Origin: Candidatus Epulonipiscium sp.
GTDB lineage: Bacteria > Bacillota > Clostridia > Lachnospirales > JAAYNZ01
Direction of reading: 5' to 3'
Assembly: GCA_012520595.1 (NCBI GenBank)
Contig: JAAYNZ010000061.1
Span: 1-37,793, forward strand
DNA length: 37,793 nucleotides
A model generated the notes under the pieces. That model made no database searches. It was not told the origin of the DNA and saw only the letters and a program-made list of their open reading frames with translations. Of the stretch, positions 8,686 through 37,793 are shown in pieces (position 1 is the first letter of the stretch; every line of letters starts with the position of its first letter). The translations under genes were made by a program, and so were the position numbers.

Positions 8686-8730
8686 TGTACTTATATCACT
8701 CTATATTGCTTAAGAAAGAAGGGACTTTCT

Positions 8731-11021: not shown

Positions 11022-11091
11022 ATAAACTCCTCCTTTCCTTCATTTTAGCTATATGATAGAAAAAGTAATCATTCAAAATAAGTCGTAAGAA

Positions 11092-11139: not shown

Positions 11140-11148
11140 CCACATCCT

Positions 11149-12513
11149 TTATTTATAATGTTCATCTAATACTTTTTGAACTTCTTTTTGGATGTAATCC
11201 AATCCTTCTGCTGGATCAACTTTTGCTTCTAAAATTTCATTAAAAATCGGTTGAGCTGCTGTTCTCCACTCATTCCAGCATTTGTTTTCATCTAGAGTTA
11301 CGCCACCTTCTGCAATTCCTTCTGTATATGCTTTTTTATTCAATGGTTTGAAAGATAAGGATTCTACATACGTAAGAGCTTCTTTGTTTACCGGAATGGT
11401 AGATCCACTACTAGCAACTGTTTTTTGAACATCTGCACTTAAATAGTATTTTAAGAAAGTCCAAGCTGCTTCTTTATTTTCTGGCTTTGCTTTGGAGAAA
11501 ATAAGCCACGTATTTCCCACATTGGGAACCGTACGTCCACCATCAAAGCCTAATGGTATTTTTACAGTATCATAATCTAAATCGGGATAATTTTTATTTA
11601 AAACTGTTTCTCCTAAACTATACTGTAAAAACATCATAGCACCTAATCCATTTCCAAACATTTGTCGTGCGCCTTGCATTTCTCTCATCGCAGATAAGGT
11701 AGGGCTTACTTTATACGTGTGAATCATATTCACCCATTCTGTAATTCCTTTTAAAGACTTTTCATCATTGAAAACCGCTTGGGTTTTGGTCTCATCTAAC
11801 GCTTGGCCTCCCGCTGATTTAATCCATGGGAACCAACCATCTGTAATTCCTCCCCCTACAAGAAAGCCCCATACATCCGTCTTTCCATCCCCATCTGTAT
11901 CTCGGGTCAAAAGTTTGGCTGCTTCAATCATATCTTCATAAGTCCAGTCATCCGTAGGATAGGGTACATTAGCCTCATCAAATAGCTTTTTATTATAAGC
12001 AAGAGCAATAGGATTTCCGCCATGAGGAACACCAAAAACTTTTCCATTTACTTCTGCTGATAAAAGAGTAGACACCACATATTCGTCTATATTTAAATCT
12101 CGATCAATAAAAGGTTTTAAATCTTCTGCGGCCCCTTTAGCACCATAACCAATCACCGCTGCATTTTCTTGAAACCACACATCTGGTGCATTTCCACCTG
12201 CAATTTGTGTCATAATCTTTTTGGTAAAATCACCCCAAGGTGCCTCATCAATATCAAGGGTAATATGAGGATACGCATCTTGGAATCCTTTAATAATTTC
12301 TTCATTGGTTACATCATAACCACCTGGCAATCCAAGAGATATTGTAATGGGTTTAGGCGGTTCTGGCTCTTTTTCTTCTGTTTTTTCTGTTTGTGATACA
12401 TCCGTTTTCGTGTCGGATGTAGAAGAGGGGTTGTTATCTTTTGTTTTACATCCTGCCAATAAGGATGCAACCAGCGTAATAATAAGAACTACTGAAAATA
12501 ATTTTTTCTTCAT
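11149..12513 (-). CDS. Sugar-binding lipoprotein of an ABC importer
   Basis: This 454-residue protein has a lipoprotein signal peptide with the lipobox LLAGC (Cys22), then an acidic Thr/Glu/Pro linker to about residue 52. A MalE/UgpB-type solute-binding domain follows: ITISLGLPGGYD, then the ...F...YPHITLDID... opening, and DTDGDGKTDVWGF, a motif frequent in this family. It would sit on the outer face of the membrane and deliver a sugar or oligosaccharide to the permeases encoded downstream. The start follows a GGAGAGA site. The length is normal and no defect was seen. It is the fourth gene of the operon that begins at 17011, after two oxidoreductases and an esterase, so its ligand is probably an oxidisable or acylated sugar or glycoside (inference). 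Confidence 0.92.
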   Translation of the reverse strand: MKKKLFSVVLIITLVASLLAGCKTKDNNPSSTSDTKTDVSQTEKTEEKEPEPPKPITISLGLPGGYDVTNEEIIKGFQDAYPHITLDIDEAPWGDFTKKIMTQIAGGNAPDVWFQENAAVIGYGAKGAAEDLKPFIDRDLNIDEYVVSTLLSAEVNGKVFGVPHGGNPIALAYNKKLFDEANVPYPTDDWTYEDMIEAAKLLTRDTDGDGKTDVWGFLVGGGITDGWFPWIKSAGGQALDETKTQAVFNDEKSLKGITEWVNMIHTYKVSPTLSAMREMQGARQMFGNGLGAMMFLQYSLGETVLNKNYPDLDYDTVKIPLGFDGGRTVPNVGNTWLIFSKAKPENKEAAWTFLKYYLSADVQKTVASSGSTIPVNKEALTYVESLSFKPLNKKAYTEGIAEGGVTLDENKCWNEWRTAAQPIFNEILEAKVDPAEGLDYIQKEVQKVLDEHYK

Positions 12514-12566
12514 ACTCTTTCTCTCCTTTTCATTTCATTATTTTCTTTTTTATGAAAACCCCAGAA

Positions 12567-13793
12567 TTAAGGGCGTTTCAACAAACTTTCAATGGAAACG
12601 ACTTTTTTATCTCGTATCGAAATATTAGCTGCTGCACCAATCAATAAAGACATGGCACCATCCATAGAAGATGCTTGACATCCCATATCGTCTGCTAAAT
12701 CATTTTTAACCAACATACGAATTAACTTGTCATCTCCTCCTCCATGAGAACCTGATGCCTTAGGAATCGTATAATGAATTAATTCTCCTTTTCGATTATA
12801 ATATCGAATGGTATTGTTTTTACTTTCTGAACCATGTCCAGAATAAACTTCTCCAATTTCCAATCGCCCCTGAGTCCCATTGATGGTTGCCCTCCAACCT
12901 TCATAAGGGCTATGTGCAATTAGCGAATACGTCAATAGAGCATCATTTTTATACTTTACTTGTACAGCCATACTGTCATAAATATTAATCTTTTCATCAA
13001 AAACACATGAATCCCTTATATAACCATCTTCTTTTTCTGCTTCAAAATAGAAACGCTTATAAAAAGGATCATCACCATCTTCGATGTCCCAATAATATTC
13101 ACAGCTATCTTTATAATCGCAAGTAAGACATCTTTCTCCTCTTTCGTCCCTTGTAGGACCATAAAAGCGTCTTGTTCCAAAAGCGGAAACTTCTTCAGGG
13201 TACGAATCAAGCCACCAATTTACAATATCAAAATGATGCGTGGATTTGTGCAACAAAAGTCCCCCGCTCTTTTCCATGTACCGATGCCATCTTCTAAAAT
13301 AGTCTGCCCCATGTCTTGTATCCAAATGCCATTCAAGATCAATACTCAGAGTTTCTCCAACCAGTCCCTCTTGGATTAACTGCTTTACTCTTTGCATATA
13401 AGGCATAAAACGCATATTAAAGGTAACTTGTACTTGTTTCCCTGACTTCTTTTCCGCCTCTAAAATCGCATTACACTTTTCTGCATCAATAGTCATTGGC
13501 TTTTCTGAAATCACATCACAGCCTGCTTCTAAAGCTTTAATAATATACTCATGATGATAACAATCTACCGTTGTAACAATGACATAATCCGGTTTAACTT
13601 CTTCTAACATCTTGTCAAAATCATCATATACAGGAAAACCACCACAATCCTTGGCAAATTCTCTTGCACGAATGGAATTCACATCATAAATCCCTTCAAT
13701 GGATGCATGGTTTTTATATGCATCAGTGGCGATCCGTTTTCCAAACATGTAGTACCCTCTCATACCTGCACCTACAATAACATACCTTTTCAT
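12567..13793 (-). CDS. Gfo/Idh/MocA-family oxidoreductase (copy B)
   Basis: This 408-residue cytoplasmic dehydrogenase has an N-terminal Rossmann fold (VIVGAGMRG at residues 5-13), the family motif E-K-P (97-99) and a C-terminal substrate domain with THHFDIVNWW (185-194). Family members oxidise or reduce sugar hydroxyls with NAD(P), or use the cofactor transiently in glycoside cleavage. A three-cysteine cluster C222-x2-C225-x5-C231 is inserted after the substrate helix. The related gene at 15776 has a similar cluster. The start is the ATG at 13791-13793, which overlaps the stop of the esterase gene by four bases (ATGA) and has GGAAGGAGA upstream; longer in-frame starts would lie inside the esterase gene. 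The overlap implies translational coupling. The substrate is unknown. Confidence 0.9.
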   Translation of the reverse strand: MKRYVIVGAGMRGYYMFGKRIATDAYKNHASIEGIYDVNSIRAREFAKDCGGFPVYDDFDKMLEEVKPDYVIVTTVDCYHHEYIIKALEAGCDVISEKPMTIDAEKCNAILEAEKKSGKQVQVTFNMRFMPYMQRVKQLIQEGLVGETLSIDLEWHLDTRHGADYFRRWHRYMEKSGGLLLHKSTHHFDIVNWWLDSYPEEVSAFGTRRFYGPTRDERGERCLTCDYKDSCEYYWDIEDGDDPFYKRFYFEAEKEDGYIRDSCVFDEKINIYDSMAVQVKYKNDALLTYSLIAHSPYEGWRATINGTQGRLEIGEVYSGHGSESKNNTIRYYNRKGELIHYTIPKASGSHGGGDDKLIRMLVKNDLADDMGCQASSMDGAMSLLIGAAANISIRDKKVVSIESLLKRP

Positions 13794-15769
13794 CCTTCTG
13801 TCTCCTTCCTTCCCTCTTGCTGCAACCACTTGTGTACATCATCAACATCAAAATACTGAAGCACATTGGGCAAAACAATACTCATGGTATCCTCTATTTT
13901 ATAATAACGACTTCCAGCCCAATCTGAAAAAGCAAGAATGGATTTTACAATCGTAACGGACTTTATCCTTGGATCAAGAAATGTTGCCAGTTGACCGTAG
14001 ATCCCTTGATTTCCATAGGCATAAATACAAATATCTTTGGCATCGACTCCTTCAAAACCTTCTAAAAGATCAATCATCCTTAATACATCATAGATCCGAA
14101 GGGCACAAAGACTATCCCCTTGTCGAATCAGATCATCACCCAATTTGTAAACCATCCCAAATAAATCATTTACTTCCCGATTCCCAATCGGATAGGGGGA
14201 TAGTGCTCCTACCCCCGATGTGTTTAAAACAAAAACCACTTTTCCTTGATTACAACACTTTAAAATCCAATCAAAATGATTTTCCAATCGGGTGGTTCCC
14301 CCATCCCAAATTCCAATCACTGCAGGATTTTTGTCCTTTTCTATTTCCTTTAGCTTAAATGCAAGACAATGATTCATGACTCTTTCTTGGGATCGCCAAA
14401 GATACGACTTGATTTCTAGATTCCCATATTGAAAATCGGTTATATCTCTTACATTCATCTGACATGGTTGTCGTTGGTAAAAAACCTTTTTTCTCAGCCA
14501 ATCATAAGCCCTATTTCTTTTTCTTTCTTCTTCTTGTTTCTTTCTCTCTCTCCTTAATACATTTATGATTTTCCAATTTTCATCATAAATAAACTGAGAA
14601 CAAGGAATTTCATTACCTACTTGCCCACTCTTTGTACACCAAAGCATGCTAGGCTCAAAAGTTTGAATACCCTGATTCTTTCTTTGTTCGAAAGATGGAC
14701 CAGGATCAACCCCAAAAACCTGGCAAAAAAAGTTTGCCGCAAAGGTTGCTAAATTCATCGTATATTTATGTCTTGATGAATCTTCTATATAGTATAGATG
14801 ATTTCCCTTTCCACAAAGTTCCCAATATTTACGGGCTAATTCTACGGTTCTCCTCGCCCCCTCAATAGGAAAAAAATCATAAGTCACTGCTAGAACTGCA
14901 ACAGGCTTTGGAACTACTGCTAGTAGTATATCAACATGATCAAAACCATATTGCATCAACCCTGGCCAATTTTGTTCTGCATCCTGGGGAACTCCCGTAA
15001 TCATATTTTCTTCATAACTTGTAATAAAAGTTCCTGGTGCAAAAGCCTTGACTCGCTCCTCACATAACATCAACATGCTGGTTTGGGTTCCACCACCTGA
15101 ATTGCCTGTAACACCTATGCGATTAGTATCCACCTCTGGGCGACTGATTAAATAATCAATACTCCGTATAGCATCATGAAGAAAATATCGAGCCGATGCA
15201 TATCCGGTTGGTAAACATTGAAACCCTACATAGGTATGCTCCGTTGTCCCCTGTCTTACGACTTCCTCCCCATGCTCATAATAACTATATCGTTCTCCCT
15301 GACCAATGGGATCTTGGGCCAATACCACAAGTCCACTTTTCACAAGACATTGACAAACCTTTTGATACTCTACACTGTGTTTTGCCAAAGGATCATGTCC
15401 ACAGAGAAATAACACAGCGGGTCTAGGTTCTTTTATAGAATCAGGTACATAAAGGTTGGCTGTCACAAAATGATGAGGCCTAGATTCATATATGACCTTC
15501 TCTATTATAAAACCATCTCCCTGCACACGACCTGTGACTTGAGGGTTTAAGGGAGTTTCATTTGAAGGCAAGCCACCAATAGAAACAAGAAACTTTTCCT
15601 TAATATAGGATTGCCATTCTTGTAACTGCTGAATTGTTTTTATTTGATTACGCTTTGCCTTCCCCTTTTCTAACAGTTTTTCTCCATTTCCATAAACATA
15701 TTCTTTTAACTGGCTTTTTACATCATAAAAATGGGATGGATTATATTTTTCAAGCTCTTTTATACTCAT
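13790..15769 (-). CDS. Tandem alpha/beta-hydrolase, acetyl-xylan-esterase-like
   Basis: This 659-residue protein has no signal peptide, so it is probably cytoplasmic. The first hydrolase domain (about residues 60-360) shows the oxyanion region LFLCGHDP and the nucleophile elbow G-N-S-G-G-G with S224. A plausible acid is D298 (TYDFFP) and the His is H334 (SSRHKY). It resembles acetyl xylan esterases and the dienelactone hydrolase/prolyl oligopeptidase clan. The second half (about 390-645) has a similar beta-strand rhythm (PAVIGIWDGG, VFVLNTSGVGA, DICIYAYGNQG). It lacks a clear G-x-S-x-G: the elbow position reads Y-G-N-Q-G, so it is likely a non-catalytic repeat. It starts 6 bases after the upstream oxidoreductase gene ends and overlaps the next by four. 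Release of acyl groups from an imported sugar is inferred. Confidence 0.8.
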   Translation of the reverse strand: MSIKELEKYNPSHFYDVKSQLKEYVYGNGEKLLEKGKAKRNQIKTIQQLQEWQSYIKEKFLVSIGGLPSNETPLNPQVTGRVQGDGFIIEKVIYESRPHHFVTANLYVPDSIKEPRPAVLFLCGHDPLAKHSVEYQKVCQCLVKSGLVVLAQDPIGQGERYSYYEHGEEVVRQGTTEHTYVGFQCLPTGYASARYFLHDAIRSIDYLISRPEVDTNRIGVTGNSGGGTQTSMLMLCEERVKAFAPGTFITSYEENMITGVPQDAEQNWPGLMQYGFDHVDILLAVVPKPVAVLAVTYDFFPIEGARRTVELARKYWELCGKGNHLYYIEDSSRHKYTMNLATFAANFFCQVFGVDPGPSFEQRKNQGIQTFEPSMLWCTKSGQVGNEIPCSQFIYDENWKIINVLRRERKKQEEERKRNRAYDWLRKKVFYQRQPCQMNVRDITDFQYGNLEIKSYLWRSQERVMNHCLAFKLKEIEKDKNPAVIGIWDGGTTRLENHFDWILKCCNQGKVVFVLNTSGVGALSPYPIGNREVNDLFGMVYKLGDDLIRQGDSLCALRIYDVLRMIDLLEGFEGVDAKDICIYAYGNQGIYGQLATFLDPRIKSVTIVKSILAFSDWAGSRYYKIEDTMSIVLPNVLQYFDVDDVHKWLQQEGRKETEG

Positions 15770-15775
15770 TCTTGA

Positions 15776-17011
15776 TTACACCTCTAAATAAATCCGTTTT
15801 CCTTCTTTCCTTGATTTTTCTGCTGCAAAGGCCATAAGATGACTTTGAAGAGATAAACGAGCTGAAGTTTTTAAATCGCTACCATCACTACCACTGGTAA
15901 CTGCATCAATAAAAGCTTTTACCAGTCTAGCATCTCCTCCACCATGACTGGAGATAATAGTTTTATAGTCCACTTTAATGGTTTCTTTTTCTTGGGTTAA
16001 AAAGTCATAAATTTCAAGTTCTCCAAGTTCTAAATGCCCACGGATATCTCCCTTTGTGCCAAAAATACGTAATGTTCTTGTATTTTCACTAGAAAATCCT
16101 GTCATGTTAAAAGAAACAATCGTATCATCTTCCATGGTAAAAATCGTACTTTGGTGATCATTTACATCATTATCACAATGATATACGCAACGACCATAGG
16201 GTCCTTTCTTCAATGCTTCGTACCGTGCCGCAAAAGAAGTGTCTGCAGAAATGGTTTCTGTTGGCCATCCTACTTGAGTAATTTGTTTTAAATAAAGTCT
16301 TGGTGCAAAATAAGGACAAGTCTTTTCATGAGGACATCCGGCTAAACAAAAAGCAGGAGCTCCTTCTGGAGCATTTTCTTTTTTATAGTATTTAAGACTT
16401 CCTTCTGACATCACAGAAATACACTTCTTTCCTGTGATATAGCCAATCAAATCCAAGTCATGACATGATTTAGCTAATATAAAGGGACTGGATATGGTTT
16501 CATTGCGAAAAACACCTCTTACATAAGAATGAACAAAATGCCAGTAAGCACAGTTTTCTGTCATCTCCATATTAACAATCTCACCAATACGCTGGCTATC
16601 TACAATTTCCTTTAATTTTTCAAAAAAAGGAGCATATCGTAATACATGACAGACCATTAAGATTTTATTTTCTTCTTCTGCTTTTTCGATCATATCAATA
16701 CATTCTTGTTCCTTATCGGACATAGGTTTTTCTAATAAAACATGATATCCTTTTTCTAAAGCAGCCATGGTCGATGGATAATGAACCTTGTCAGGTGTTG
16801 CATTAATCACTGCATCTGCAAATTTTTCTTTCTCTAGAATATCTTTCCAATCAGAATAAAGTTTGTCTTCACTAATTTCAAAGTCTTTTCCTAATTTTTG
16901 TAGTTTTTTTGTGTTAGGATCGGCAACAGCAACAATATCAACTCCATACTGTTTACAATATCTAGTATAATTTCTTCCCCGGCCACCTGCTCCTAGAATA
17001 ATTACCTTCAT
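15776..17011 (-). CDS. Gfo/Idh/MocA-family oxidoreductase (copy A)
   Basis: This 411-residue protein is the first gene of the operon. The Rossmann motif is VIILGAGGRGR (residues 3-13), the family E-K-P motif is at 94-96 (VLLEKPM), and AKSCHDLDL (180-188) lies at the substrate site. It has a cysteine cluster C222-x3-C226-x5-C232 followed by PYFAPRLYL, which closely parallels the cluster in copy B. The two proteins differ too much to be a recent duplication. The ATG at 17011 follows AAGGGAGA at a spacing of about 11. The pairing with a second Gfo/Idh enzyme, an esterase and a sugar importer suggests oxidation of a sugar ring hydroxyl (for example to a 3-keto sugar) during catabolism. This is inference, and the substrate is not known. 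Confidence 0.9.
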   Translation of the reverse strand: MKVIILGAGGRGRNYTRYCKQYGVDIVAVADPNTKKLQKLGKDFEISEDKLYSDWKDILEKEKFADAVINATPDKVHYPSTMAALEKGYHVLLEKPMSDKEQECIDMIEKAEEENKILMVCHVLRYAPFFEKLKEIVDSQRIGEIVNMEMTENCAYWHFVHSYVRGVFRNETISSPFILAKSCHDLDLIGYITGKKCISVMSEGSLKYYKKENAPEGAPAFCLAGCPHEKTCPYFAPRLYLKQITQVGWPTETISADTSFAARYEALKKGPYGRCVYHCDNDVNDHQSTIFTMEDDTIVSFNMTGFSSENTRTLRIFGTKGDIRGHLELGELEIYDFLTQEKETIKVDYKTIISSHGGGDARLVKAFIDAVTSGSDGSDLKTSARLSLQSHLMAFAAEKSRKEGKRIYLEV

Positions 17012-23587: not shown

Positions 23588-25234
23588 TTATTCTCTCGTT
23601 CTATATACATTCAATCTTTCAGCGATTACCATGGCTTCGGCATAACTTAAATTACCCAGTGGATCTATTTTATTACCGCTGCCTGCAATAATACCTGCTT
23701 TTATCAGCGATGATACTGCTTCTTTCCCATACCCACTTACCTGATCCTTATCAGAAAAGACCTGTAAAGCTGTAAGATTAGTATCCGCTTCTACCATTCC
23801 AGATTTACGTAATATATTATACGTCATCACCATCATATCTTGTCGTGAAATACGTCCATCCGGATCAAATTGATGATCCGACTTACCATTAACTAACCCA
23901 AGCATTTTAGCACGATTGATTAATTGGCCATCTTCCCACCAAGAATAAATATCAGAAAAAGGTACAAATCCACTAACTTCCGTTTTAGGAGCTTGAACAT
24001 TCAACGCCTTCATGATCAAAATTAAATAGTCCCCTCGGCTGATGCTTTCCGGTAAATTATTCTCTAAATCCCATGTATACACATAATTTCGACCTATTGA
24101 ATATTCAACACCTTTTCTAGCCCATTCATAAGAAGCAGGTATGGCAAAAGCATTCTTTTCTTTTGGATCTTTGCTTATCTTTTCACCATTTACAAAAATA
24201 TTTATAGCATCCTTCTTCCATGTTTTGCCATCTTCTGAATAAACAACGTATGAAACATAATACATCTGGTCACCATCACGATAGGGATAAATCTCTATGG
24301 CTTCAAAACGTTTCCCCTCAGGTTTTGTTTTCCTACTTTTTGCTGTTGAGGTAGCATCATAAATGGAATAGTAATCATAATCATCCTGGGTCCAATCTTT
24401 TTCTACCCAATTGACAAAATCACTGGTTACATAATACAGCGTATTACTAACATATTCGTCCTTTTCATATTCTGCAATCGAATAGAGCTGAACACCAACT
24501 GTTTTTCCATCAAACATAAAATTCCCTAGCATACCGTAGCCTTCTTTATTTAGCTTTTCTAGGGGATCCCATTGCGTCTTACCTTCATTTACTGTTTTTG
24601 CAGCATGCACTCGAAATCCACTTCCACTAATATTGGTTCCTGTCAAAGAATAAAGTGCCCCATCTTTAATAATAATGTTTTCAATATTGGTACCATCAGG
24701 GACTTCCTTTGTAATATCAAACCAAGTTTTCGCATCTTGGGATAAATAAAGATATTTTATACCTTCATCATCTTTACAATACAATTTAAAATATCCATTT
24801 TCAAACTTAACACTTAAGGGCGAAATACCTACTGGTAAAGTAGCTACCTCCCAAGTTCTACCGTCTGTCGTATAGTTCAGATGGTTTTGATAGTTTTTAT
24901 CCGATGAAATTCCAACAAAAGTTTGATTTCCATAAACAAGAGAAAAATATTCCGATGTAATATTCCAATTTACCAAATCATTAGAAGTACCATAATAATA
25001 ACTATAATCCGTTTCACTGGTAAAAAATCCAACATAAGGAACATCTTGGTTTAACGTAAAAACATCTTGTAAATAAAGATCCTTTGAAACTTCCTCTGCT
25101 GAAAGAGCAATTTCCATATACTTGGTAACTATTTTTGTTGCCGCTTCTACAACAAAAGGATTCTCAAAAATCAGAGAAAAGGCCATACAAAAAGCAAGGA
25201 AAAGCGCCAGGAATTGTTTTTTTTCTTTTTTCAT
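23588..25234 (-). CDS. SLH-anchored protein with BNR/sialidase-like repeats
   Basis: This 548-residue exported protein has a signal peptide (about 1-32, ending VVEAA). The middle region (about 60-370) has repeated S-x-D-x-x-x-W/T-W elements (TSNDLVNWN, TTDGRTWEV, SQDAKTWFD, TSDFVNWVE, SEDGKTWKK). These are BNR/Asp-box-like and suggest a beta-propeller. Two or three SLH domains fill the C-terminus (about 385-548), with FSDIYSWW..G.I.RA..LGLVNG and DPDGRISRQDM. A catalytic Arg triad typical of sialidases was not found, so binding or structure is as likely as catalysis. The ATG follows AAAAGGGG. It lies 59 bases downstream of the ligase-like gene and probably belongs to the same transcript, so it would be anchored to the wall polymer the cluster may help to make. 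Confidence 0.85.
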   Translation of the reverse strand: MKKEKKQFLALFLAFCMAFSLIFENPFVVEAATKIVTKYMEIALSAEEVSKDLYLQDVFTLNQDVPYVGFFTSETDYSYYYGTSNDLVNWNITSEYFSLVYGNQTFVGISSDKNYQNHLNYTTDGRTWEVATLPVGISPLSVKFENGYFKLYCKDDEGIKYLYLSQDAKTWFDITKEVPDGTNIENIIIKDGALYSLTGTNISGSGFRVHAAKTVNEGKTQWDPLEKLNKEGYGMLGNFMFDGKTVGVQLYSIAEYEKDEYVSNTLYYVTSDFVNWVEKDWTQDDYDYYSIYDATSTAKSRKTKPEGKRFEAIEIYPYRDGDQMYYVSYVVYSEDGKTWKKDAINIFVNGEKISKDPKEKNAFAIPASYEWARKGVEYSIGRNYVYTWDLENNLPESISRGDYLILIMKALNVQAPKTEVSGFVPFSDIYSWWEDGQLINRAKMLGLVNGKSDHQFDPDGRISRQDMMVMTYNILRKSGMVEADTNLTALQVFSDKDQVSGYGKEAVSSLIKAGIIAGSGNKIDPLGNLSYAEAMVIAERLNVYRTRE

Positions 25235-28021: not shown

Positions 28022-29956
28022 ATGTTTATGAAAAGTATGAAACGATTCTTGGCATTGTTGCTTTTTTCAACTTTTTTACTCTTTTCACTGTCCCCTTCTT
28101 TATCTGCCCAAGCACAAAGTGTTTGGAGTGAAAATAAAAAAGTAACTGCTAACGGTAAAACATGGAATGTACAAGTCGTATGGACAAATCTCAATGACCC
28201 TACCATTCGACTGGAAACTGTTGTTGCAAAAAATCAAGTAGGACAAGTGAATTCCTTAAAAAACATAGTGGACTCTACTAAAACAGCCGAAATACAACCT
28301 TTGGCAGGAATTAATGGGACTTTTTTTAATGCCTATGATGCAACTTATCAACAACCTATGGGAACTATCTTATCCAAAGGAAAATTTCTTCATTTATCCA
28401 CTACAGGTACTACCCTTGGATTTGATCACAATGGGAAGTTTACAACCAGTCCCCTTTATGTAACCATTCAAGGTGGTATCAACGATCAATGGGAATGGCC
28501 AAACAACTGGTACGCTTGGAACGTAAACCACTATTATACAGATCCTACAGCTATTTCTATCTTTACCCCTGACTATGGTACAAAAACTCCACCAAACAAT
28601 GTTACTTCTGTTGTAGTAGATAAAGGTGTCATTGTGAACATAGGGACTGGACAGCAAACCATCCCTTCTGATGGATATGTAATCGTCACTGGCAATCCTA
28701 CCATGTTGGAAAAGTTTAAAACAGGAGATACACTCATGTATCAATATAAAACCTTTGTCAACACTTTTAATCCATCCACATCCACCCAAAAACTAGATTG
28801 GTCTCATATTCGTACAGGGCTTAGTGCAGGTCCTCTCTTGGTAAAAAATGGAGTTCCCGCCCTCAATGCAAAAGCAGAAGGATTTTCAGAACCAAAAATT
28901 ATCAGTGCTTCTGCCCAACGGAGTTTTATTGGTGTAACCAAAAACAATCAATTGGCCATGGGAACCGTAGCAGGAGCCAATATGGAAGATCTAACTCAAA
29001 TCGCCTTACAAATGGGACTTATAGAAGCCATAAACCTGGATGGGGGAGCTTCTTCTGGACTGTATTACAAAGGCTCTTATTTACATACCCCTGGACGTGA
29101 AATAAGCAATGCTCTCGTTGTTACAAAGCTACAAGAAAGACCTATCAAAGTCCTATTAAATAACCAACCTATCTTTTTTGATGTGGATCCCTTTATCAAA
29201 AAACCTGAAAATATCACTTTGGTGCCTTTAAGACAAATTGCTGAAGCTTTAGGTGCTGTCATTTCCTATGACGCCGGAACCCAACAAATCCGGCTGGATC
29301 GTGGCAAAGATATCCTCTATTTAAAAGCCAATAGCAACCAAATGACCATCAATGGTAAAACAAAACAAATGGCCACTTCAATTGTTTCAAAAAATGGAAG
29401 AACCATGGTTCCTGTACGATTTGTAACCGAAGTCTTTGGAGGAGAAGTCACTTGGCATGAAGATACAAAAACGGTGGGTCTAAAAATTGACATTGTAAAT
29501 ATAGAGGAACTCTATGCCCAAGCTCTCAAGCTTGAAACTTCAGGTAATCTAGAGGGAGCCATTACAAAATACCTGGCCATTTTAGATGCCAATGACCAAC
29601 ATTTGCCAAGCCTTCGTAAACTGGCTGAAATCTATTCTAAAAAGCAAGATCATGCAAATACCATTTATTATTACGAAAAGTTTTTAAATATTGACAAGGA
29701 TGATACCGGCATCTGGGGATCCTTAGGCTGGTCCAAACTTGCCCTACAAGATTTTACAGGAGCCGCCCAAGCTTTCTTAAAACAGGTAGAGCTAAACCCT
29801 GATTCCTTTCAAGGTTATTATGGTCTTGGAGCTGTCTATTCTTATTATGGAAATGAAGACATTGCAAAAGCAAAATCCTATTTTCAAAAAGCCTTGGAAA
29901 AAGGGGCTACAGGTGCTCAAAAAAATCATGCTGAAAACTATATTCAAACCAAGTAA
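28022..29956 (+). CDS. Secreted phosphodiester glycosidase with copper-amine-oxidase-N and TPR regions
   Basis: This 644-residue exported protein has a signal peptide (about 1-30, ending LSAQA). A phosphodiester glycosidase domain of the NAGPA (uncovering-enzyme) family follows at about 45-370, with GINGTFFNAYD (96-106), GLSAGPLLVKNG, the QRSFIGVTKNNQL region and AINLDGGASSGL. The family removes GlcNAc or related sugars linked through a phosphodiester. Next comes a copper-amine-oxidase N-terminal-type (stalk) domain (about 373-490), with the duplicated VPLRQIAEALGA and VPVRFVTEVFGGEVTW motifs. A C-terminal TPR array (about 495-640) ends the protein. The ATG at 28022 follows AAAGGAAG; an ATG two codons downstream is an alternative. 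It probably acts on wall or teichoic-type polymers outside the cell (inference) and is transcribed away from the envelope cluster. Confidence 0.87.
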   Translation: MFMKSMKRFLALLLFSTFLLFSLSPSLSAQAQSVWSENKKVTANGKTWNVQVVWTNLNDPTIRLETVVAKNQVGQVNSLKNIVDSTKTAEIQPLAGINGTFFNAYDATYQQPMGTILSKGKFLHLSTTGTTLGFDHNGKFTTSPLYVTIQGGINDQWEWPNNWYAWNVNHYYTDPTAISIFTPDYGTKTPPNNVTSVVVDKGVIVNIGTGQQTIPSDGYVIVTGNPTMLEKFKTGDTLMYQYKTFVNTFNPSTSTQKLDWSHIRTGLSAGPLLVKNGVPALNAKAEGFSEPKIISASAQRSFIGVTKNNQLAMGTVAGANMEDLTQIALQMGLIEAINLDGGASSGLYYKGSYLHTPGREISNALVVTKLQERPIKVLLNNQPIFFDVDPFIKKPENITLVPLRQIAEALGAVISYDAGTQQIRLDRGKDILYLKANSNQMTINGKTKQMATSIVSKNGRTMVPVRFVTEVFGGEVTWHEDTKTVGLKIDIVNIEELYAQALKLETSGNLEGAITKYLAILDANDQHLPSLRKLAEIYSKKQDHANTIYYYEKFLNIDKDDTGIWGSLGWSKLALQDFTGAAQAFLKQVELNPDSFQGYYGLGAVYSYYGNEDIAKAKSYFQKALEKGATGAQKNHAENYIQTK

Positions 29957-31365: not shown

Positions 31366-31406
31366 AAAAAGGGCTCTAAGCCTAAAAATAGAGCAGGATC
31401 CCAAAA
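31366..31406 (-). terminator. Terminator hairpin in front of the OFA transporter gene
   Basis: On the minus strand GCTCTA pairs with TAGAGC, with an inner GGCT/AGCC alternative, and a T5 run follows (31366-31370). It is part of the second hairpin repeat. It would end the GH2 operon transcript that stops coding at 31569, but it also lies between the likely OFA promoter and the OFA start codon. Confidence 0.6.
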
Positions 31407-31434
31407 AATCCCACTCAACAATCGACAAAGAACC
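31371..31434 (-). repeat. Hairpin repeat element, copy 2
   Basis: Read on the minus strand the element starts GGTTCTTTGT and contains GGATCCTGCTC. It ends TTAGAGCCC followed by T's. It matches the element at 2489-2549 in both ends and in the CCTGCT block, in the same orientation relative to the upstream gene and with a U-run at the same end. Confidence 0.5.
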
Positions 31435-31568: not shown

Positions 31569-34031
31569 CTAAATAGTTGTTCTTTCACTATTTAACGCCT
31601 TTACATATAGTTTTCGATTTCGTTCTTTTCCTTCACTATCTTTTATGCATACTATTTTTTCTTCTCCTGCTTCTAAATTAAAATAGTTATCTGATAATTG
31701 AAGTCCATTGATATCTCCATCTATTTTACAAAATCTTGCAAAATAATCTGTTGAAATTCTTATCCTAGCCCCTTCCTTTGTTACTTTCAATTGTGCTTTC
31801 GGCAACATGGTCTCTTGGTATTCTCCGAAAAATCGCATGGATTTGTTCTCTTCCTGTGAAAACCAAGCAACAACATAGAACAATCGATGGCGATTTGGAA
31901 TAATCACATTGGGATAAAATCTTCCTCCTACCGCTAGTTCTTTAATCTTCTTCACGGAATTTGCCTGTACTTGAACTTTCACCTGTTCTTCATAAAAACA
32001 GTTTCCTAGGTAATCTTTGACTGCAATACATAATTCCTTTTCAATACTATCCCTACTATTATTTAGTATCCATATCCCTGTTTCATTTTGGCTTATCTGC
32101 TCTAAGGAAATGTGTACAGGTGCAAAAAAACGCTTTCCATAATAGTAAGATGCTTTAGGAATAAGATCATAATCAATCATGCTCCAACTATGAGATGGAA
32201 CACAATCATTCAACTGCCAAATGAGTGCACCTGCTGTCATCGGGAAATTACGCCTATAATGCTCTGTACCAAATTGTAGACCCTCAGCTTGTACAAACAT
32301 ACTATAGTCCACATATTCATCTACATTCTGCGGATTTCCTATATGTTGTTGCATGTAATAATACATTCGTTCTAAACTTTGGTCTTTGTTTAAATATTTA
32401 AAATCAAAATCATCTAATTTTGGATCTTTCTTTTTTATATACTTTTCAATTGTTTGTTTCACCGGAGATGCATGTAGACCATATTCACTAGCAAAGCGAG
32501 TTGTATCAGCTGCATAATGAGTATATGGAACATCTGTGAACCATACATCCCAGTTATGTCGATCTCCTTCTTCCATGCTATTTGCTATCTGGCCCCCCCA
32601 TGGAGACGATGGAACATAATATCTTTCTGGGTCAAGGGTTTTTAACCACTCTGGTATTTTTTCCTCAAATAACCTTTTACCGTACATTGTTCTGGGAAGC
32701 TTAATTTTCTGACATAACATAGTCAATTCTACATTACCTACCCATAATGCAATACAAGAATAATTTCTTAATCGAACTACTGCCTTTTTAATTTCTTTTT
32801 GGACGTTTGACATAAACTCTTCATCATAATCTGGATATTCACCACAAGCAAACATAAAGTACTGCCATACTAAAATTCCATGCTGATCGCATAACTGATA
32901 AAAGATGTCCTTCTCATAAATTCCTCCGCCCCAAAGGGATAATGTGTTCATATTTCCTTCTTTAGCCATTTGAATCAGTTTTCTGTATCGATTATCGGAT
33001 ACACTTCCTAACATAGAATCTACAGGTACCCAATTGGCCCCCCTAGACATGATAGGTATTCCATTAAGAACCATTTGAAATACAGAATTTCCTTCTTCAT
33101 CTTTGGTTCGAACTTTAAGGCTGCGAACTCCATATTCAAATATGTATTGATCTATAATTTCTTCTCCTTCTACCAATTCTACAATTACTTGATATAAATG
33201 AGGATTTCCTAAGTCATGACACCACCAAAATAATACGTCCTTTAACTCAAATGAAAAATCTGGTTGAGAACTTTCTAATAAAAATCGATTATTTTTCTGA
33301 TCGATCATTGTAATACGATAATTATAATCACCCTCTTGGTATACTTGGCTATTAATTTGACATTGAAGGCGTGCATATTTTTGTTCTAGAGAAATTGTTT
33401 CTGTCACCATATAGACATCAAAAATTTTTCCTTTCGTTACTGCTTTTAATACTACAGGCTGCCATAATCCAATGGTTGCTAATCTCGGTGCCCAATCCCA
33501 TCCATAGGAATATGCAGCTTTTCGTGCATAAGCCCTTTCGGTTGAATAATTGGTCCAAAATCCTACAGGTAATTTTTTTTCTAAAGCTTTCTCACTCATA
33601 ACAGGAAATTCTATTATCAATGTATTTTTCCCTTGCTTACCATATGGCTTAATATCAACCGTATGTTCTATAAACATATTTGCAAATTCACCTATGGCTT
33701 GTCCATTAAATATTATTGTTGCATATGTATCCACTCCATAAAAAGTTAGCTCTAAAGTATCCATTCCAAGCATTTCTTCCGTCAGTTCAACTTCTGTTTG
33801 ATAGATCCATATCTTTTTTTCTACATACGCACACTTTAAATCATTTTGTTTATAATAAGGATGCTCTATTCTTCCATTCTCTATTAAAATGCTATGAACA
33901 TCCGATGGAACCTTACAGGAAATCCATTTTTTATCTTTATAATCTCCTCTAATTAGCTTGTTTCGCTGATAAACCTCTGGTTTAAATCCATATAACTTCC
34001 AATGGTCAGATATTACTTGTTCTATTCTCAT
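31569..34031 (-). CDS. Glycoside hydrolase family 2, beta-mannosidase-like
   Basis: This 820-residue cytoplasmic enzyme (no signal peptide) has the GH2 order of jelly-roll, Ig-like and TIM-barrel domains. Beta-mannosidase-type markers are A-R-K-A-A-Y-S-Y-G-W-D-W-A-P and SLWGGGIYEKDIFYQLCDQHGILVWQYFMFACG. Numbered from the GTG at 34043, the nucleophile is E520 (FASEYGLH) and the acid/base is E439 in W-V-G-N-V-E. The Asn usually just before the acid/base (W-x-G-N-N-E) is Val438 here. The start is the ATG at 34031, about 11 bases after AGAAGGG; a GTG four codons earlier overlaps that site. It is the last gene of the RidA/deacylase operon. It would split beta-mannosides or related glycosides inside the cell; exo-beta-glucosaminidase or another GH2 specificity is possible. 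Confidence 0.87.
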   Translation of the reverse strand: MRIEQVISDHWKLYGFKPEVYQRNKLIRGDYKDKKWISCKVPSDVHSILIENGRIEHPYYKQNDLKCAYVEKKIWIYQTEVELTEEMLGMDTLELTFYGVDTYATIIFNGQAIGEFANMFIEHTVDIKPYGKQGKNTLIIEFPVMSEKALEKKLPVGFWTNYSTERAYARKAAYSYGWDWAPRLATIGLWQPVVLKAVTKGKIFDVYMVTETISLEQKYARLQCQINSQVYQEGDYNYRITMIDQKNNRFLLESSQPDFSFELKDVLFWWCHDLGNPHLYQVIVELVEGEEIIDQYIFEYGVRSLKVRTKDEEGNSVFQMVLNGIPIMSRGANWVPVDSMLGSVSDNRYRKLIQMAKEGNMNTLSLWGGGIYEKDIFYQLCDQHGILVWQYFMFACGEYPDYDEEFMSNVQKEIKKAVVRLRNYSCIALWVGNVELTMLCQKIKLPRTMYGKRLFEEKIPEWLKTLDPERYYVPSSPWGGQIANSMEEGDRHNWDVWFTDVPYTHYAADTTRFASEYGLHASPVKQTIEKYIKKKDPKLDDFDFKYLNKDQSLERMYYYMQQHIGNPQNVDEYVDYSMFVQAEGLQFGTEHYRRNFPMTAGALIWQLNDCVPSHSWSMIDYDLIPKASYYYGKRFFAPVHISLEQISQNETGIWILNNSRDSIEKELCIAVKDYLGNCFYEEQVKVQVQANSVKKIKELAVGGRFYPNVIIPNRHRLFYVVAWFSQEENKSMRFFGEYQETMLPKAQLKVTKEGARIRISTDYFARFCKIDGDINGLQLSDNYFNLEAGEEKIVCIKDSEGKERNRKLYVKALNSERTTI

Positions 34032-34108
34032 ACTCCTTTTCACCCTTCTAATGATATCTGCTATACATTTTAAAAATATTTTTCTATCCGATTTTATTTC
34101 CCCATTAC

Positions 34109-35128
34109 CTAAACTTCAATAATACAGCTGACATTTTCCACAGGAATTCGTTGTACAAAACATAGCTTATTTTTTTCTTTTTCAAATCTAAATACACAAA
34201 TTTCACTGCTTCTTTGATTAGCAACCAGAAAATATTTTTCATCCTTAGTCAGCATTATATACCTAGGCCAATCACCAAAACAGCTGTATTCTTTATAAAG
34301 AGTCGGAATCCCATCTTCCTCTATTTTAAATAAGCTAATGGTATTGTATCCTCTATTGGACAATAACATCCATTTACCATTATTCGTCACAATGCAAGAA
34401 GCCGGATAATTTTTTATCCTCCTTTCTAAAAAGGAAGTCTTTACTTGAGCCAACTCCTCTATTATTTTTCCACCTTTATTATCAAAAGCATAAACACCTA
34501 CTGTATTTCCTAACTCATTTACCACATACATTCTGTTTCCTGCTTGGTTCCACTTTACCTCACGAGGTCCTAGTCCTCTTTTTAACTTTACGCTTTGCTG
34601 TAGTTGAGCGGGAAACGGTACATCCAAACATAGATCATAAACTTCTAAACAACTTAATCCTAAATCTGTAGTAATTAACCATCGACCATCATGTGATAAA
34701 CTACAACAATGGGCATGGGCTTTATGGGTACTCCTCTTCGGATATACTTCACCATGAAACTGATTCAAATTATCGTCTACACAGTGAAAGGATCCACTGC
34801 CATAACAAGAACCATAAATTTTTTTATTTTTATCATTATATCGTAAATGACATAATCCCCTACCCTTTAACTTTATGCTTCTTTCATATTTTAACTTTTT
34901 TCTTTCTACCTGGTATACATCAATTTTACAGTTACTTTCTACCTCATTGGCTACAAACAATCTTTGATTTTTTCTATCGTATTCAAGAAAAGAAGGGTTA
35001 TAAAGATGCTCCCATTTCTCCATAACCCTTCCTTTTCCATTTTCATCTAACTCCAAAAAATAAATTCCATTTTTTGTAACCCTATCTGTATAACCACCTG
35101 CAATAAATGAATACTTATTTTCTTTCAT
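34109..35128 (-). CDS. Lactonase-type seven-bladed beta-propeller protein
   Basis: This 339-residue soluble protein has repeated propeller blades spaced about 45-50 residues. Examples are NPSFLEYDRKNQRLFVANE, CSLSHDGRWLITTDLGLSCLEVY, GPREVKWNQAGNRMYVVNELGN, and WPRYIMLTKDEKYFLVANQ. The pattern and length fit the lactonase family that includes 6-phosphogluconolactonase of the YbhE kind. No signal peptide was seen. GGAGGAAGGT precedes the ATG at 35128. It is encoded 15 bases after the first RidA-like gene, so it is in the same operon. A sugar- or amino-acid-derived lactone is a plausible substrate. The operon also carries a deacylase, two RidA-like proteins and a GH2 enzyme, so the pathway is not obvious. 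Confidence 0.87.
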   Translation of the reverse strand: MKENKYSFIAGGYTDRVTKNGIYFLELDENGKGRVMEKWEHLYNPSFLEYDRKNQRLFVANEVESNCKIDVYQVERKKLKYERSIKLKGRGLCHLRYNDKNKKIYGSCYGSGSFHCVDDNLNQFHGEVYPKRSTHKAHAHCCSLSHDGRWLITTDLGLSCLEVYDLCLDVPFPAQLQQSVKLKRGLGPREVKWNQAGNRMYVVNELGNTVGVYAFDNKGGKIIEELAQVKTSFLERRIKNYPASCIVTNNGKWMLLSNRGYNTISLFKIEEDGIPTLYKEYSCFGDWPRYIMLTKDEKYFLVANQRSSEICVFRFEKEKNKLCFVQRIPVENVSCIIEV

Positions 35129-35143
35129 ACCTTCCTCCAGCCG

Positions 35144-35614
35144 TTACTCTCTTATCGCAATAATTGTTTCGATCTCCACAGGGATATTTCCATTAGGAAG
35201 ATTGTGAGTCCCCATAACAGTCCGGGCATGGTATCCTCTTTCTTCTAATACATCCATAATCACATCAGAAAAACCATCGGCGACTTCATCTATATTATGA
35301 AAATCCTCTGCACAATTCACTAGAGCAAACGCCTTTACAAAACGTTCAATCCTATCTAAATTACCAAGATAATCTTTTAAAGCACCTAAAATAATAATTC
35401 CACATTCCCTCGCAGCCCCATATCCTTCTTCTACTGTCAAATCTTTTCCCATTCTTCCTTGGTACAAAGGTTTTCCTGTAATTTGATCTTCTGGGCCATG
35501 TCCTGAAACAAAAATTAGATTTCCTACTTGCCTTAATACAACAATTCCTTTTTTTACTTTATATACAAAATCCTTTTCAACGTTATCTTCTATAACTTTA
35601 TTAATTGTATCCAT
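35144..35614 (-). CDS. RidA/YjgF-family protein (copy 1)
   Basis: This 156-residue protein has the YjgF/YER057c/UK114 fold. Its features are VGNLIFVSGHGPED, the G.L.VE.GY.AAR.C...IL..LK.YLG.LD.I..FVKA pattern and the final GYHARTVMGTHNLPNGNIPVEIE. Arg131 corresponds to the Arg needed by imine-deaminating RidA proteins, followed by the conserved L-P and the final Glu. It may hydrolyse reactive enamine/imine intermediates from amino-acid breakdown. It is about 25 residues longer than E. coli RidA and belongs to a long subgroup. GGAGGTGAAAAG precedes the ATG at 35614. It sits 14 bases downstream of the deacylase gene; a paralogue lies on the other side of that gene. Confidence 0.9.
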   Translation of the reverse strand: MDTINKVIEDNVEKDFVYKVKKGIVVLRQVGNLIFVSGHGPEDQITGKPLYQGRMGKDLTVEEGYGAARECGIIILGALKDYLGNLDRIERFVKAFALVNCAEDFHNIDEVADGFSDVIMDVLEERGYHARTVMGTHNLPNGNIPVEIETIIAIRE

Positions 35615-35628
35615 CTTTTCACCTCCAT

Positions 35629-37203
35629 TTACTCTCCTCGTTTCAAAGCATATCCCGGGAATAAACCAGTTACCTTTTCTTCATAAACTACCATTTTCCC
35701 ATTGATAATTACATGAGTAATCCCTTTGGGCCCGCGACGTGGATTACAATACGTAGCCGTATCTGTTACTGTTTCTTCATTTAAAATAACTATATCTGCA
35801 AAATTACCTTCTTGAATGATTCCCCTCTTTTTTAAATTAAAAGTCTTGGCTGGATTTGCTGCCATACGCTGCGCTATTGTATTATAAGACATTCCCTGTT
35901 CTCTTGCTAACCTTAAAAACCTTGGAAAGGTACCAAATGAACGTGGATGAGGTTTAAATCCATAGGGAATAGAATCTGTACATACCATATAATAAGGTTT
36001 GGATAATAATTCAACAAAATCCTTATCCATACGTAAACGTTTTTCTTCGTCCTCAGTTGGATTTGAAAGGTAACCGACCTCTAACCCTTCTTCTAATAAA
36101 ATATCACAAATCATATCTTCATTGGTTTGGCAACGTAATTTAGCAACATCATCAAAATCCATTCCTACATATTGTTCATTTTTCTTTAAATGAGTAAATG
36201 TACCTGTTGTTGGAATCGTATTTTGTCTCATTCCTTGACAAATGGCATCCCTAAGTTTTGGATTGGCAAGCCTTTCTAATGTGGCTTCATAACCACCTTC
36301 TACTGCCCATGGTGGTAAGAAAATCATAGCATAACCACTTCCAGAGTAATACGGATACGTTTCTAATGTTATTTTCATACCATCCTTAATCGCATTCTCA
36401 ATGGGCTGCATTAATTCTTGTACATGTCCACAGTTATCAGGCCCTGTTCTAAAATGAGAAAAATGTAGTTTACAACCTGCATGTTTTGCAATTTCAATAG
36501 CTTCCAGTGTAGCATCAAAAGGCTCCCCACGAAAAACAGTTCTTGTATGTGTTACATAAGGTACATCATACTCTGTACATACTTTGCAAAGTTCAATCAG
36601 TTCATTTGTATCCGAATAAGAACAAGGATAATAGCTGAGTCCTGTAGAAAATGCCACCGCTCCCTCTTCAAATGCTTGTCTCATCAGATCTTTTGCTTTA
36701 TCTAATGCATATCCAGTTAATGGTTGGTCATGAAATCCCATGGCTTCTAATCGTATTGTTCCATGGGGTACTTGATATGCAACATTAGGAGCTACCTTTT
36801 GATGAAATTTACTTAGGTATTCTCCTACTGTATTAAAATCCAAAGGTATGTCAGGAAAAAATCCATTTAACCCCCTTAAATATTTTGCATACATGTTTAA
36901 ATTATCCGTAGATAATGGAGCATATGATAACCCATCTTGACCTAAAATCTCTGTAGTAATTCCCTGGCAAATCCCATTAGCATGCTGCCTATCAAAAAGA
37001 AGTGTCATATCTGAATGCAAATGAGTATCAATAAAACCTGGCATAACTGCCTGTCCCTCTGCATCGATCATATCTCTATATTCTTCCTCTGACAAATTTC
37101 CTATTCTACATATTTTTTCACCTATAATTCCAATGTCAGCTTGATAAACACCTTTTTCTGTACCATCATATATCTTTGCATTTTTAATTATTAAATCAAA
37201 CAT
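35629..37203 (-). CDS. N-acyl-D-amino-acid deacylase-like amidohydrolase
   Basis: This 524-residue metal-dependent amidohydrolase of the D-aminoacylase family probably removes acyl groups from N-acyl amino acids or similar amides in the cytoplasm. The metal-site pattern is H61-x-H63 (DTHLHSD), H219 (VTHTR), H250 (LHFSHF) and D410 (VCTDS). The family ending PHPRSFGTFPR follows, then the usual N-x-A-K-T-F and F-A-D-I-V-I-L blocks. The well-studied D-aminoacylase has Asn-Cys at the metal-bridging position; here it is Gln89-Asp90 (GQDGLS). AGAAGGCGAAAACA precedes the ATG. The gene lies between two RidA-like genes and is spaced closely enough for one transcript. D-amino-acid release is the likeliest role, but an N-acyl sugar or peptide is possible. 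Confidence 0.88.
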   Translation of the reverse strand: MFDLIIKNAKIYDGTEKGVYQADIGIIGEKICRIGNLSEEEYRDMIDAEGQAVMPGFIDTHLHSDMTLLFDRQHANGICQGITTEILGQDGLSYAPLSTDNLNMYAKYLRGLNGFFPDIPLDFNTVGEYLSKFHQKVAPNVAYQVPHGTIRLEAMGFHDQPLTGYALDKAKDLMRQAFEEGAVAFSTGLSYYPCSYSDTNELIELCKVCTEYDVPYVTHTRTVFRGEPFDATLEAIEIAKHAGCKLHFSHFRTGPDNCGHVQELMQPIENAIKDGMKITLETYPYYSGSGYAMIFLPPWAVEGGYEATLERLANPKLRDAICQGMRQNTIPTTGTFTHLKKNEQYVGMDFDDVAKLRCQTNEDMICDILLEEGLEVGYLSNPTEDEEKRLRMDKDFVELLSKPYYMVCTDSIPYGFKPHPRSFGTFPRFLRLAREQGMSYNTIAQRMAANPAKTFNLKKRGIIQEGNFADIVILNEETVTDTATYCNPRRGPKGITHVIINGKMVVYEEKVTGLFPGYALKRGE

Positions 37204-37227
37204 TGTTTTCGCCTTCTTTTTTAATTT

Positions 37228-37695
37228 TTATGATCTAATTTTTACAATTGCTTCTACTACAATTGGAACATTTTGTGGTAATGCAAATGCACCCATAGCA
37301 GAACGTGCATGTTGCCCACGGCGTCCAAACACTTCCACCATTAAGTCAGAAAATCCATTCATAACTGCAGGTTGACTTGAAAAATCACCACCACTATTAA
37401 TTAAACCTAAAGCTTTTACTACGTAATCCACCCGGTCTAGTTCTCCAATATACTCCTTAATTGTAGCTAGCATATTTAATCCACAAAGTCGAGCAGCTTG
37501 ATAAGCGGTATCAATGTCTAAATCTGTTCCCACCTTACCTACGTATACAGGAGTTCCTTCAATATTGATAGGTAAGTGAGCAGATAAAAATAGCAAATCT
37601 CCCTTCAAAACTGCATCTACTGCCCCTTTTCCTTTGCGATTTCTTACTGGCAACTTGATTCCTAACTTTTCAATTCTTCTGCCTGTTTCACTCAT
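37228..37695 (-). CDS. RidA/YjgF-family protein (copy 2)
   Basis: This 155-residue protein is homologous to copy 1. It has GDLLFLSAHLPI, the D.DTAYQAARLCGLNMLATIKEYIGELDRVD pattern and GQHARSAMGAFALPQNVPIVVEAI. Arg131 is conserved at the same position as in copy 1. The two paralogues differ over most of their length, so the duplication is old or they were recruited separately. AAGGAGG precedes the ATG at 37693-37695. Its start overlaps the stop of the next upstream gene by one base (TAATG), implying coupled translation. It may protect the deacylase pathway from reactive imines (inference). Confidence 0.9.
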   Translation of the reverse strand: MSETGRRIEKLGIKLPVRNRKGKGAVDAVLKGDLLFLSAHLPINIEGTPVYVGKVGTDLDIDTAYQAARLCGLNMLATIKEYIGELDRVDYVVKALGLINSGGDFSSQPAVMNGFSDLMVEVFGRRGQHARSAMGAFALPQNVPIVVEAIVKIRS

Positions 37696-37793
37696 TACTC
37701 TATTTCCTCCTTCTTAACTTTCCCATCATTTTCATTAATGATATTTTTTAGTTCTTGTATCACAATTTCTGTTTCTTCTAAAGTTACGTTTAA
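37695..37793 (-). CDS. 3' end of an unidentified gene (runs off the right edge)
   Basis: A minus-strand frame enters at the right edge and ends at a TAA (37695-37697) after 32 codons. The visible tail is charged and helical (LEETEIVIQELKNII then acidic and Lys-rich residues). The stop overlaps the start of the second RidA-like gene. The tail suggests the end of a soluble enzyme, and a pyridoxal-phosphate enzyme would fit the operon. There is not enough sequence to name it. Confidence 0.65.
   Translation of the reverse strand, partial: LNVTLEETEIVIQELKNIINENDGKVKKEEIE

Follow-up and report, generated by a model that had tools for sequence, protein, structure and literature searches.

The right end of the contig studied here poses a simple question: what is broken down by an operon that places two Rid-family (RidA-like) proteins beside a deacylase, a lactonase and a glycoside hydrolase? 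The stretch analysed, called here the window, is the whole 37,793-nucleotide contig JAAYNZ010000061.1 (C153 in our numbering) of a Candidatus Epulonipiscium sp. genome of 2.52 Mb in 230 contigs (GCA_012520595.1). The original prediction proposed breakdown of an N-acyl amino acid through imine intermediates, with a glycosylated or sugar-linked acyl amino acid as the substrate. Our analysis demonstrates that the conserved operon is real, and an oxidative N-acetylhexosamine pathway is the reading that fits it best. We consider it probable, with appreciable room for doubt, that the operon allows an N-acetylhexosamine glycoside to be used inside the cell by an oxidative, non-phosphorylative route.

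Gene content and order were computed, as were conservation and residue changes. The window sequence and profile matches confirm the five genes, their families, strand and location as first described; all five reading frames are intact and lie on the minus strand. In the direction of transcription, the edge of the window holds the 3' end of a DgaE-family pyridoxal 5'-phosphate (PLP) ammonia-lyase gene (37,695-37,793). It is followed by Rid1, a predicted imine/enamine deaminase (37,228-37,695, 155 aa; PF14588, 58.6 bits; PDB 3d01 and PA0814, 9bk9), and by a D-aminoacylase/OngB-like amidohydrolase, a predicted N-deacetylase (35,629-37,203, 524 aa; PF07969; PDB 1m7j, 3gip and PpOngB, 9kb1). Rid2 (35,144-35,614, 156 aa; PF14588, 52.8 bits) aligns with PA0814 (9bk9) and retains the conserved arginine. 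The last two genes encode a seven-bladed propeller lactonase, predicted to act on aldonolactones (34,109-35,128, 339 aa; PF10282, 199.9 bits), and a glycoside hydrolase of family 2 (GH2) from the beta-mannosidase branch (31,569-34,043; 5n6u, 454 bits), which is set apart by its altered subsite motif and its clade. The deacylase is indeed bracketed by two diverged Rid proteins, 44% identical over 126 aa, with gaps of 24 and 14 bases; Rid2 and the lactonase gene are separated by 15 bases, and the lactonase and GH2 genes by 65. The TAATG overlap noted before also exists, its partners being the stop of the DgaE-type gene and the start of Rid1. A gap of 250 bases separates GH2 from the next gene, for a major facilitator superfamily transporter, and contains a weak terminator-like hairpin (31,391-31,416, minus strand). 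Taken as a whole, the search for terminators gave 2 candidates against 3.6 expected from shuffled sequence, no better than chance, and the promoter scan was likewise no better than shuffles.

The original prediction had called for the genes past the right edge to be read. In the search made, the last 127 bases of the window found contig C209 alone. Of the terminal overlap lengths between 60 and 399, only 127 fits the pair, as would be expected if the overlap stems from the assembly graph, and none of the other contigs matches the first 250 bases of C209. The operon continues there on the same strand with the end of a solute-binding protein (SBP) gene, two permease genes (PermA and PermB) of a sugar ATP-binding cassette (ABC) importer, a 1019-aa GH38 alpha-mannosidase, a short-chain dehydrogenase/reductase (SDR) and the whole DgaE-family gene (L003:6063-7199, 378 aa). 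The joined order is therefore SBP, PermA, PermB, GH38, SDR, DgaE, Rid1, amidohydrolase, Rid2, lactonase and GH2, on one strand throughout, with intergenic spacing of -4 to 65 bases.

From these genes we infer which reactions take place, in what sequence the sugar is trimmed and oxidised, and what the substrate is. The ABC importer would bring in an oligosaccharide, to be trimmed by GH38 and GH2. Since no obvious signal sequence is seen by eye at the N-termini of GH2, GH38 and the lactonase, this processing is probably intracellular. The SDR would oxidise C1 of the N-acetylhexosamine to give a lactone, which the propeller lactonase would open to a 2-acetamido aldonate (GlcNAc1A or its C2 epimer). 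Removal of acetate by the amidohydrolase would then leave a 2-amino aldonate, and the DgaE-type enzyme may eliminate the C3 hydroxyl to give an enamine. Rid1 and Rid2 would speed the conversion of this enamine to 2-keto-3-deoxygluconate (KDG) and ammonia. KDG could pass to central metabolism by way of a KDG kinase and a 2-keto-3-deoxy-6-phosphogluconate (KDPG) aldolase, for both of which the genome has homologues outside the operon. On contig C185, a PfkB gene resembling KDG kinase (best match NF041633, 570 bits of 700) adjoins a KDPG aldolase gene scoring above cutoff, which suggests that the host can use KDG.

The ABC importer, GH38, SDR and DgaE genes upstream, together with the epimerase homologue and NagK-like kinase of relatives described below, point to a C1-oxidised amino sugar as the substrate. 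Of the original proposal, deacylation and the handling of an imine or enamine by Rid are retained, and the N-acyl amino acid would be an oxidised amino sugar. A sugar-linked substrate is likewise kept; a glycosylated acyl amino acid is not, as the sugar itself, oxidised at C1, would be the N-acyl amino acid.

To follow the operon across genomes, named genomes were scanned with a DgaE alignment, and 80 of 128 confirmed loci were kept: the 15 closest (L086-L100; DgaE 45-58% identical; from Breznakiella, Hungatella, Lachnoclostridium, Mediterraneibacter, Subdoligranulum and metagenome-assembled Clostridia, among others) and 65 more distant. Genes were counted by tblastn at E 1e-8, using the operon proteins and relatives' genes, anywhere in each fetched stretch. 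Among the 15 closest loci, SDR is found in 14, Rid1 and Rid2 in 13 each, and PermA, PermB, SBP and LacI in 11 each; an N-acylglucosamine 2-epimerase (AGE) homologue occurs in 9, RraA-like genes in 5, and GH4 and NagK-like kinase genes in 3 each. Relatives do not consistently lack the lactonase and GH2 genes, the outcome that the original prediction had set against itself: they occur in 8 and 5 of these loci, downstream of Rid and in the same orientation as DgaE, and all 8 lactonase loci also hold SDR. Rid is absent from only two of the 15, one (L086) having DgaE without SDR or Rid, and the other (L095) ending 7 bases past DgaE. The 65 more distant loci contain no lactonase, GH2 or AGE epimerase gene, with Rid1 in 9, Rid2 in 3 and SDR in 10. 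DgaE-type genes are scarce within the order of the host: at E 1e-45, 4 of 392 genomes have one, our own included.

The closest cluster, L088, reads LacI, SDR, DgaE, epimerase, SBP, permeases, Rid1, amidohydrolase, Rid2, lactonase and GH2. Its identities to the window's operon are 83% for Rid1, 74% for Rid2, 72% for the amidohydrolase, 60% for SDR, 55% for DgaE, 53% for GH2 (a gene cut at the stretch end) and 31% for the lactonase. The Rid pair is among the best-conserved parts of the clusters (Rid1 64-83%, Rid2 47-75% identity). A phmmer search with the SDR at E 1e-40 gave no matches.

Two distantly related amidohydrolase types occur in the closest DgaE clusters, never both together. The EF_0837/PRK09237 type is present in 10 of the 15 closest and 17 of the 65 more distant stretches, and the D-aminoacylase type in 1 and 3, respectively; the window and L088 have the latter instead. 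The copy in L087 scores 363 bits of 371 with PRK09237 and 218 of 432 with EF_0837, and genes of the EF_0837 and DgaE types are known to occur side by side. In two Synergistaceae/Synergistales loci (L118 and L148), DgaE-type, EF_0837-type and D-aminoacylase homologues stand side by side. An even more Rid-rich layout is seen at L041:7835-15659 and L106, with amidohydrolase, DgaE, three Rid and four SDR genes, and NanE adjoining on the opposite strand.

The PLP enzyme may also differ. G176 and G130, in the same order, carry SBP, PermA, PermB, GH2, Rid, a D-serine-dehydratase-type enzyme and amidohydrolase, a third (G068) being cut by a contig end; G248 reads SBP, PermA, PermB, D-serine-dehydratase-type enzyme, amidohydrolase and Rid. 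These clusters indicate that deacylase, PLP enzyme and Rid are kept together even though the PLP enzyme differs. The same three kinds of gene, with a D-aminoacylase homologue, are found at L046, L048, L052 and L066/L077; L046 and L048 also contain GH2, and L048 further has GH4, BadF-type kinase and GH20 genes. In searches that started from the amidohydrolase, a single-protein scan of genome contigs returned no relative, 14 homologues from 56 relatives had no other operon gene within 1.5 kb, and one (L066) of 16 non-own loci adjoins Rid and D-serine-dehydratase-type genes.

A first alternative concerns the SDR. SDRs that turn aldohexoses into lactones, including N-acetyl-D-mannosamine dehydrogenase, are listed in PMC12133307. 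It is conceivable that the SDR instead serves as a KDG or gluconate dehydrogenase once deamination is complete, or oxidises a ring hydroxyl, and that the cell imports a glycosyl aldonate such as oxidised chitooligosaccharide or N-glycan fragments. The L046 and L048 clusters, which combine GH2, Rid, the D-serine-dehydratase-type enzyme and amidohydrolase with no SDR or lactonase match in the fetched stretches, speak for this, as do SDR matches to NCBIfam gluconate 5-dehydrogenase models, all of those listed being below cutoff. However, 8 of the 15 closest loci have both SDR and lactonase, a usual pair for sugar C1 oxidation, and an imported open-chain aldonate would presumably need no lactonase. 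We regard this alternative as unlikely.

The nearest described system is the oxidative chitin (ong) pathway of Pseudoalteromonas prydzensis (OngA, OngB, OngC, OngD and KdgK), which uses 2-acetamido-2-deoxygluconate by means of an enzyme homologous to D-aminoacylase, a PLP-dependent deaminase and a member of the RidA family (PMC9537276). The original statement that no such pathway had been described was therefore partly wrong, although this gene set itself was not found described among the matches listed in the open-licence PMC literature. OngB and then OngC act on 2-acetamido-2-deoxygluconate, OngC converting the deacetylated acid to KDG and ammonia; OngD is required for growth on this compound, though alone it released no ammonia (PMC9537276). 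Our operon likewise unites a D-aminoacylase-fold deacetylase, a PLP deaminase and RidA-family proteins (two here) in one cluster, and the route from N-acetyl aldonate to KDG, shown for ong, is the one proposed for it. It differs in its DgaE-type PLP enzyme, its two Rid proteins, its own SDR and lactonase, and its ABC importer. Furthermore, GH2 and GH38 stand in for GH20, no match to lytic polysaccharide monooxygenase (LPMO) family LPMO_10 (PF03067) is present in the genome, the kinase is encoded in trans, and the specificity residues of OngB are not retained. The operon would thus work like the ong pathway, yet it is not a member of ong.

The amidohydrolase itself brings a second alternative into play, the original proposal, in which an N-acyl-D-amino acid is deacylated, the freed D-hydroxy amino acid is dehydrated by the PLP enzyme, Rid clears the imine, and the glycosidases strip attached sugars. 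By score, the nearest characterised homologues of the enzyme are D-aminoacylases. Leu at 298 (by ungapped count) is as in the Alcaligenes faecalis enzyme (PMC12017989), and OngC deaminates D-serine and D-threonine too (PMC9537276). However, the SDR, lactonase, AGE epimerase homologue and NagK-like kinase would be left unexplained, the importer and hydrolases are of sugar type, and DgaE is most like glucosaminate-6-phosphate ammonia-lyase. On balance, N-acyl-D-amino acid breakdown seems rather improbable.

Returning to the oxidative N-acetylhexosamine pathway, we examined the PLP enzyme that would carry its elimination step. It is of the SelA/DgaE type, not the fold-type III kind that includes OngC and the D-serine-dehydratase-type enzymes described above, and matches the structure of the Salmonella D-glucosaminate-6-phosphate ammonia-lyase (DGL; 7lc0) with 142 bits. 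Residues were counted after aligning the window's enzyme and 15 others from the clusters (n = 16), along with 65 wider relatives, to DGL. The PLP lysine is present in 16/16 cluster sequences and 65/65 wider relatives; we name it by its SGAK/SGGK motif because it lies at chain position 213, versus Lys-217 in PMC9529869. Of the three DGL phosphate-site arginines, Arg301 is kept in 16/16, and Arg332 and Arg346 in 0/16, which would fit an unphosphorylated substrate. His163 is found in 0/16 and His in column 162 in 1/16, the loop being gapped. His163 of DGL acts as the proton donor to the product, and without it, in the H163A variant, the enamine escapes into solution; the authors deem the freed enamine potentially toxic and name RidA as the kind of enzyme that degrades such enamines (PMC9529869). 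By analogy, the operon's DgaE may hand a free enamine to Rid, in keeping with the loss of the loop histidines. Relative to the Salmonella dga system (DgaE/DGL and DgaF; PMC9529869), the PLP enzyme family is shared and the same elimination chemistry is expected, whereas our operon lacks phosphotransferase system genes, two phosphate-site arginines and the loop histidine pair, has the Rid pair, and adds deacetylation and C1 oxidation.

Both Rid proteins contain the arginine expected of a deaminase-competent member, within a HAR motif that in Rid2 aligns with HARAAVG of PA0814. We take this arginine to be residue 105 in RidA numbering. Arg105 of RidA has been tied to deaminase activity, and PA0814 has been shown to be an imine deaminase (PMC5619798). 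A third Rid of the same family is encoded elsewhere in this genome (L043:11317-11784, contig C211 of G000), adjoining a metallophosphoesterase gene. A comparable association has been predicted, though only predicted, in the Natrarchaeobius N-acetylglucosamine (GlcNAc) pathway, where a glucose dehydrogenase and a DGL homologue occur with a RutC-family protein (PMC12343721). That system differs in being archaeal, in placing CE14 deacetylation first and in its unknown kinase, and the excerpted text mentions neither a lactonase nor RidA. In these chitinotrophic archaea the RutC-family protein beside the DGL homologue is labelled a transcription repressor (PMC12343721). Since RutC is a Rid family member (PMC8113886), a Rid role in that pathway seems more likely for it than that of a repressor.

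The GH2 enzyme may indicate which sugar is used. Its catalytic glutamates E439 and E520 are kept, while GNNE has become GNVE at 436-439 and the Asp of WQDF is Tyr395; V438 thus replaces the Asn that precedes the acid/base residue of GH2 beta-mannosidases. The altered motif is present in all five readable members (window, L088, L091, L096 and L097; the L099 fragment stops short of the region) and in 0/31 comparison GH2s, which all keep Asn and Asp there. The latter comprise 29 non-own loci returned from 391 class genomes (60 matching, our own included) plus L046 and L048. In a tree of the 36 sequences, the five altered enzymes form one clade with 100/100 support. The Asn of the NE motif has been linked to the C2 position of the sugar, and a glucosaminidase subfamily has SD in its place (PMC12243196). 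Together with the GNVE and Tyr395 changes, this link makes action on a C2-modified sugar, most simply N-acetylmannosamine (ManNAc), a fair prediction from sequence, and the epimerase and NagK-like genes of relatives are in line with it. GH38 in the window's operon argues for mannose rather than ManNAc. Ordinary use of the N-glycan core, with GH38 and GH2 freeing mannose and GlcNAc from Man-alpha-Man-beta-GlcNAc beside a loosely coupled amino acid module, would suit a GH38 and a beta-mannosidase-branch GH2 sharing an operon with a sugar importer, and the genome has no GH130 match, so that a phosphorylase route for Man-GlcNAc is not seen, yet it is very unlikely given that GH38 occurs in 0/80 DgaE loci and that GH2 lacks the Asn and Asp kept by all 31 others.

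Tentatively, and with more doubt than belief, we suggest that the GH2 clade may be a new beta-N-acetylmannosaminidase and the operon an oxidative route for ManNAc-beta-1,4-GlcNAc, in which the DgaE-type enzyme would free the enamine and the conserved Rid pair would finish the reaction. Such a disaccharide could come from bacterial cell-wall polymers, namely teichoic acid linkage units or the secondary cell wall polymer that binds S-layer homology (SLH) domains. SLH domains bind cell-wall polymers bearing pyruvylated beta-ManNAc, and the window encodes SLH-domain surface proteins at 2,559-6,425 and 23,588-25,234 (minus strand), one of them with three SLH domains and Big_2; this link to ManNAc polymers is circumstantial.

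Several observations weigh against the oxidative N-acetylhexosamine pathway. Among the loci compared, GH38 turned up in the window's operon alone. Four NagA homologues above cutoff are encoded in the genome, which therefore has a classical route as well. The SDR could use another hydroxyl. DgaE scores under the curated NCBIfam cutoffs (TIGR01437, 215 bits against 385; NF047797, 191 against 600). Arg332 and Arg346 are also gone in 65/65 wider relatives, and their loss is thus not cluster-specific; nor is that of His163, which is present in 9/65. A link between loop-His loss and a nearby Rid found no support, the 80 loci showing the opposite trend: Rid lies in the stretch at 7/10 loci with His in column 162/163 and 19/70 without (Fisher p 0.011), in a sample with many near-identical Poribacteria and a gapped loop. 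The amidohydrolase keeps the metal ligands H219 and H250, the catalytic D410 and the carboxylate-binding Arg of the subtype V D-aminoacylases, but Asp (D90) replaces the Cys metal ligand, leaving the subtype V ligand set incomplete, and Arg stands in place of Lys254. The Asp is also found in L088 and in the four homologues aligned from elsewhere than clusters of this kind (L007, L008, L057 and L060), and the Cys is kept in five aligned enzymes of D-serine-dehydratase-type clusters. Ser292 of OngB corresponds to Gly (G290) and Gln298 to Leu (L296), the latter placed by ungapped count since the PpOngB alignment stops at query 289 (PpOngB 291). The specificity pairs are Ser and Gln in OngB, and Thr and Leu/Arg in D-aminoacylases (PMC12017989); residues 292 and 298 match neither pair. 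The AlphaFold model of this enzyme was poor (predicted local distance difference test score 63) and was not used. Finally, none of these enzymes has, to our knowledge, been assayed.

Elsewhere in the window, the gene at 935-2,383 (minus strand) fuses a GntR DNA-binding domain to an SBP_bac_8/SBP_bac_1 domain, as in a regulator with a sugar-binding-protein-like sensor. The gene at 28,022-29,956 (plus strand) combines a NAGPA phosphodiester glycosidase domain with a copper-amine-oxidase N-terminal domain and TPR repeats. Another sugar operon is possibly located at 7,826-17,011, where ABC importer genes (by eye), two Gfo/Idh genes, an AXE1-like esterase and a NagB/6-phosphogluconolactonase-like gene are found.

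If the proposed pathway is true, oxidative amino-sugar catabolism, shown in an LPMO-bearing chitinolytic marine bacterium, would extend to Clostridia, many of them gut bacteria, and these Clostridia would make the aldonate themselves. A PLP enzyme that lacks the proton-donor His of its solved relative and travels with a conserved Rid pair offers a testable case, and the substrate of a GH2 clade with an altered C2 subsite can be assayed directly. Should the ManNAc route prove true, the Rid proteins would be pathway enzymes, not repair enzymes.

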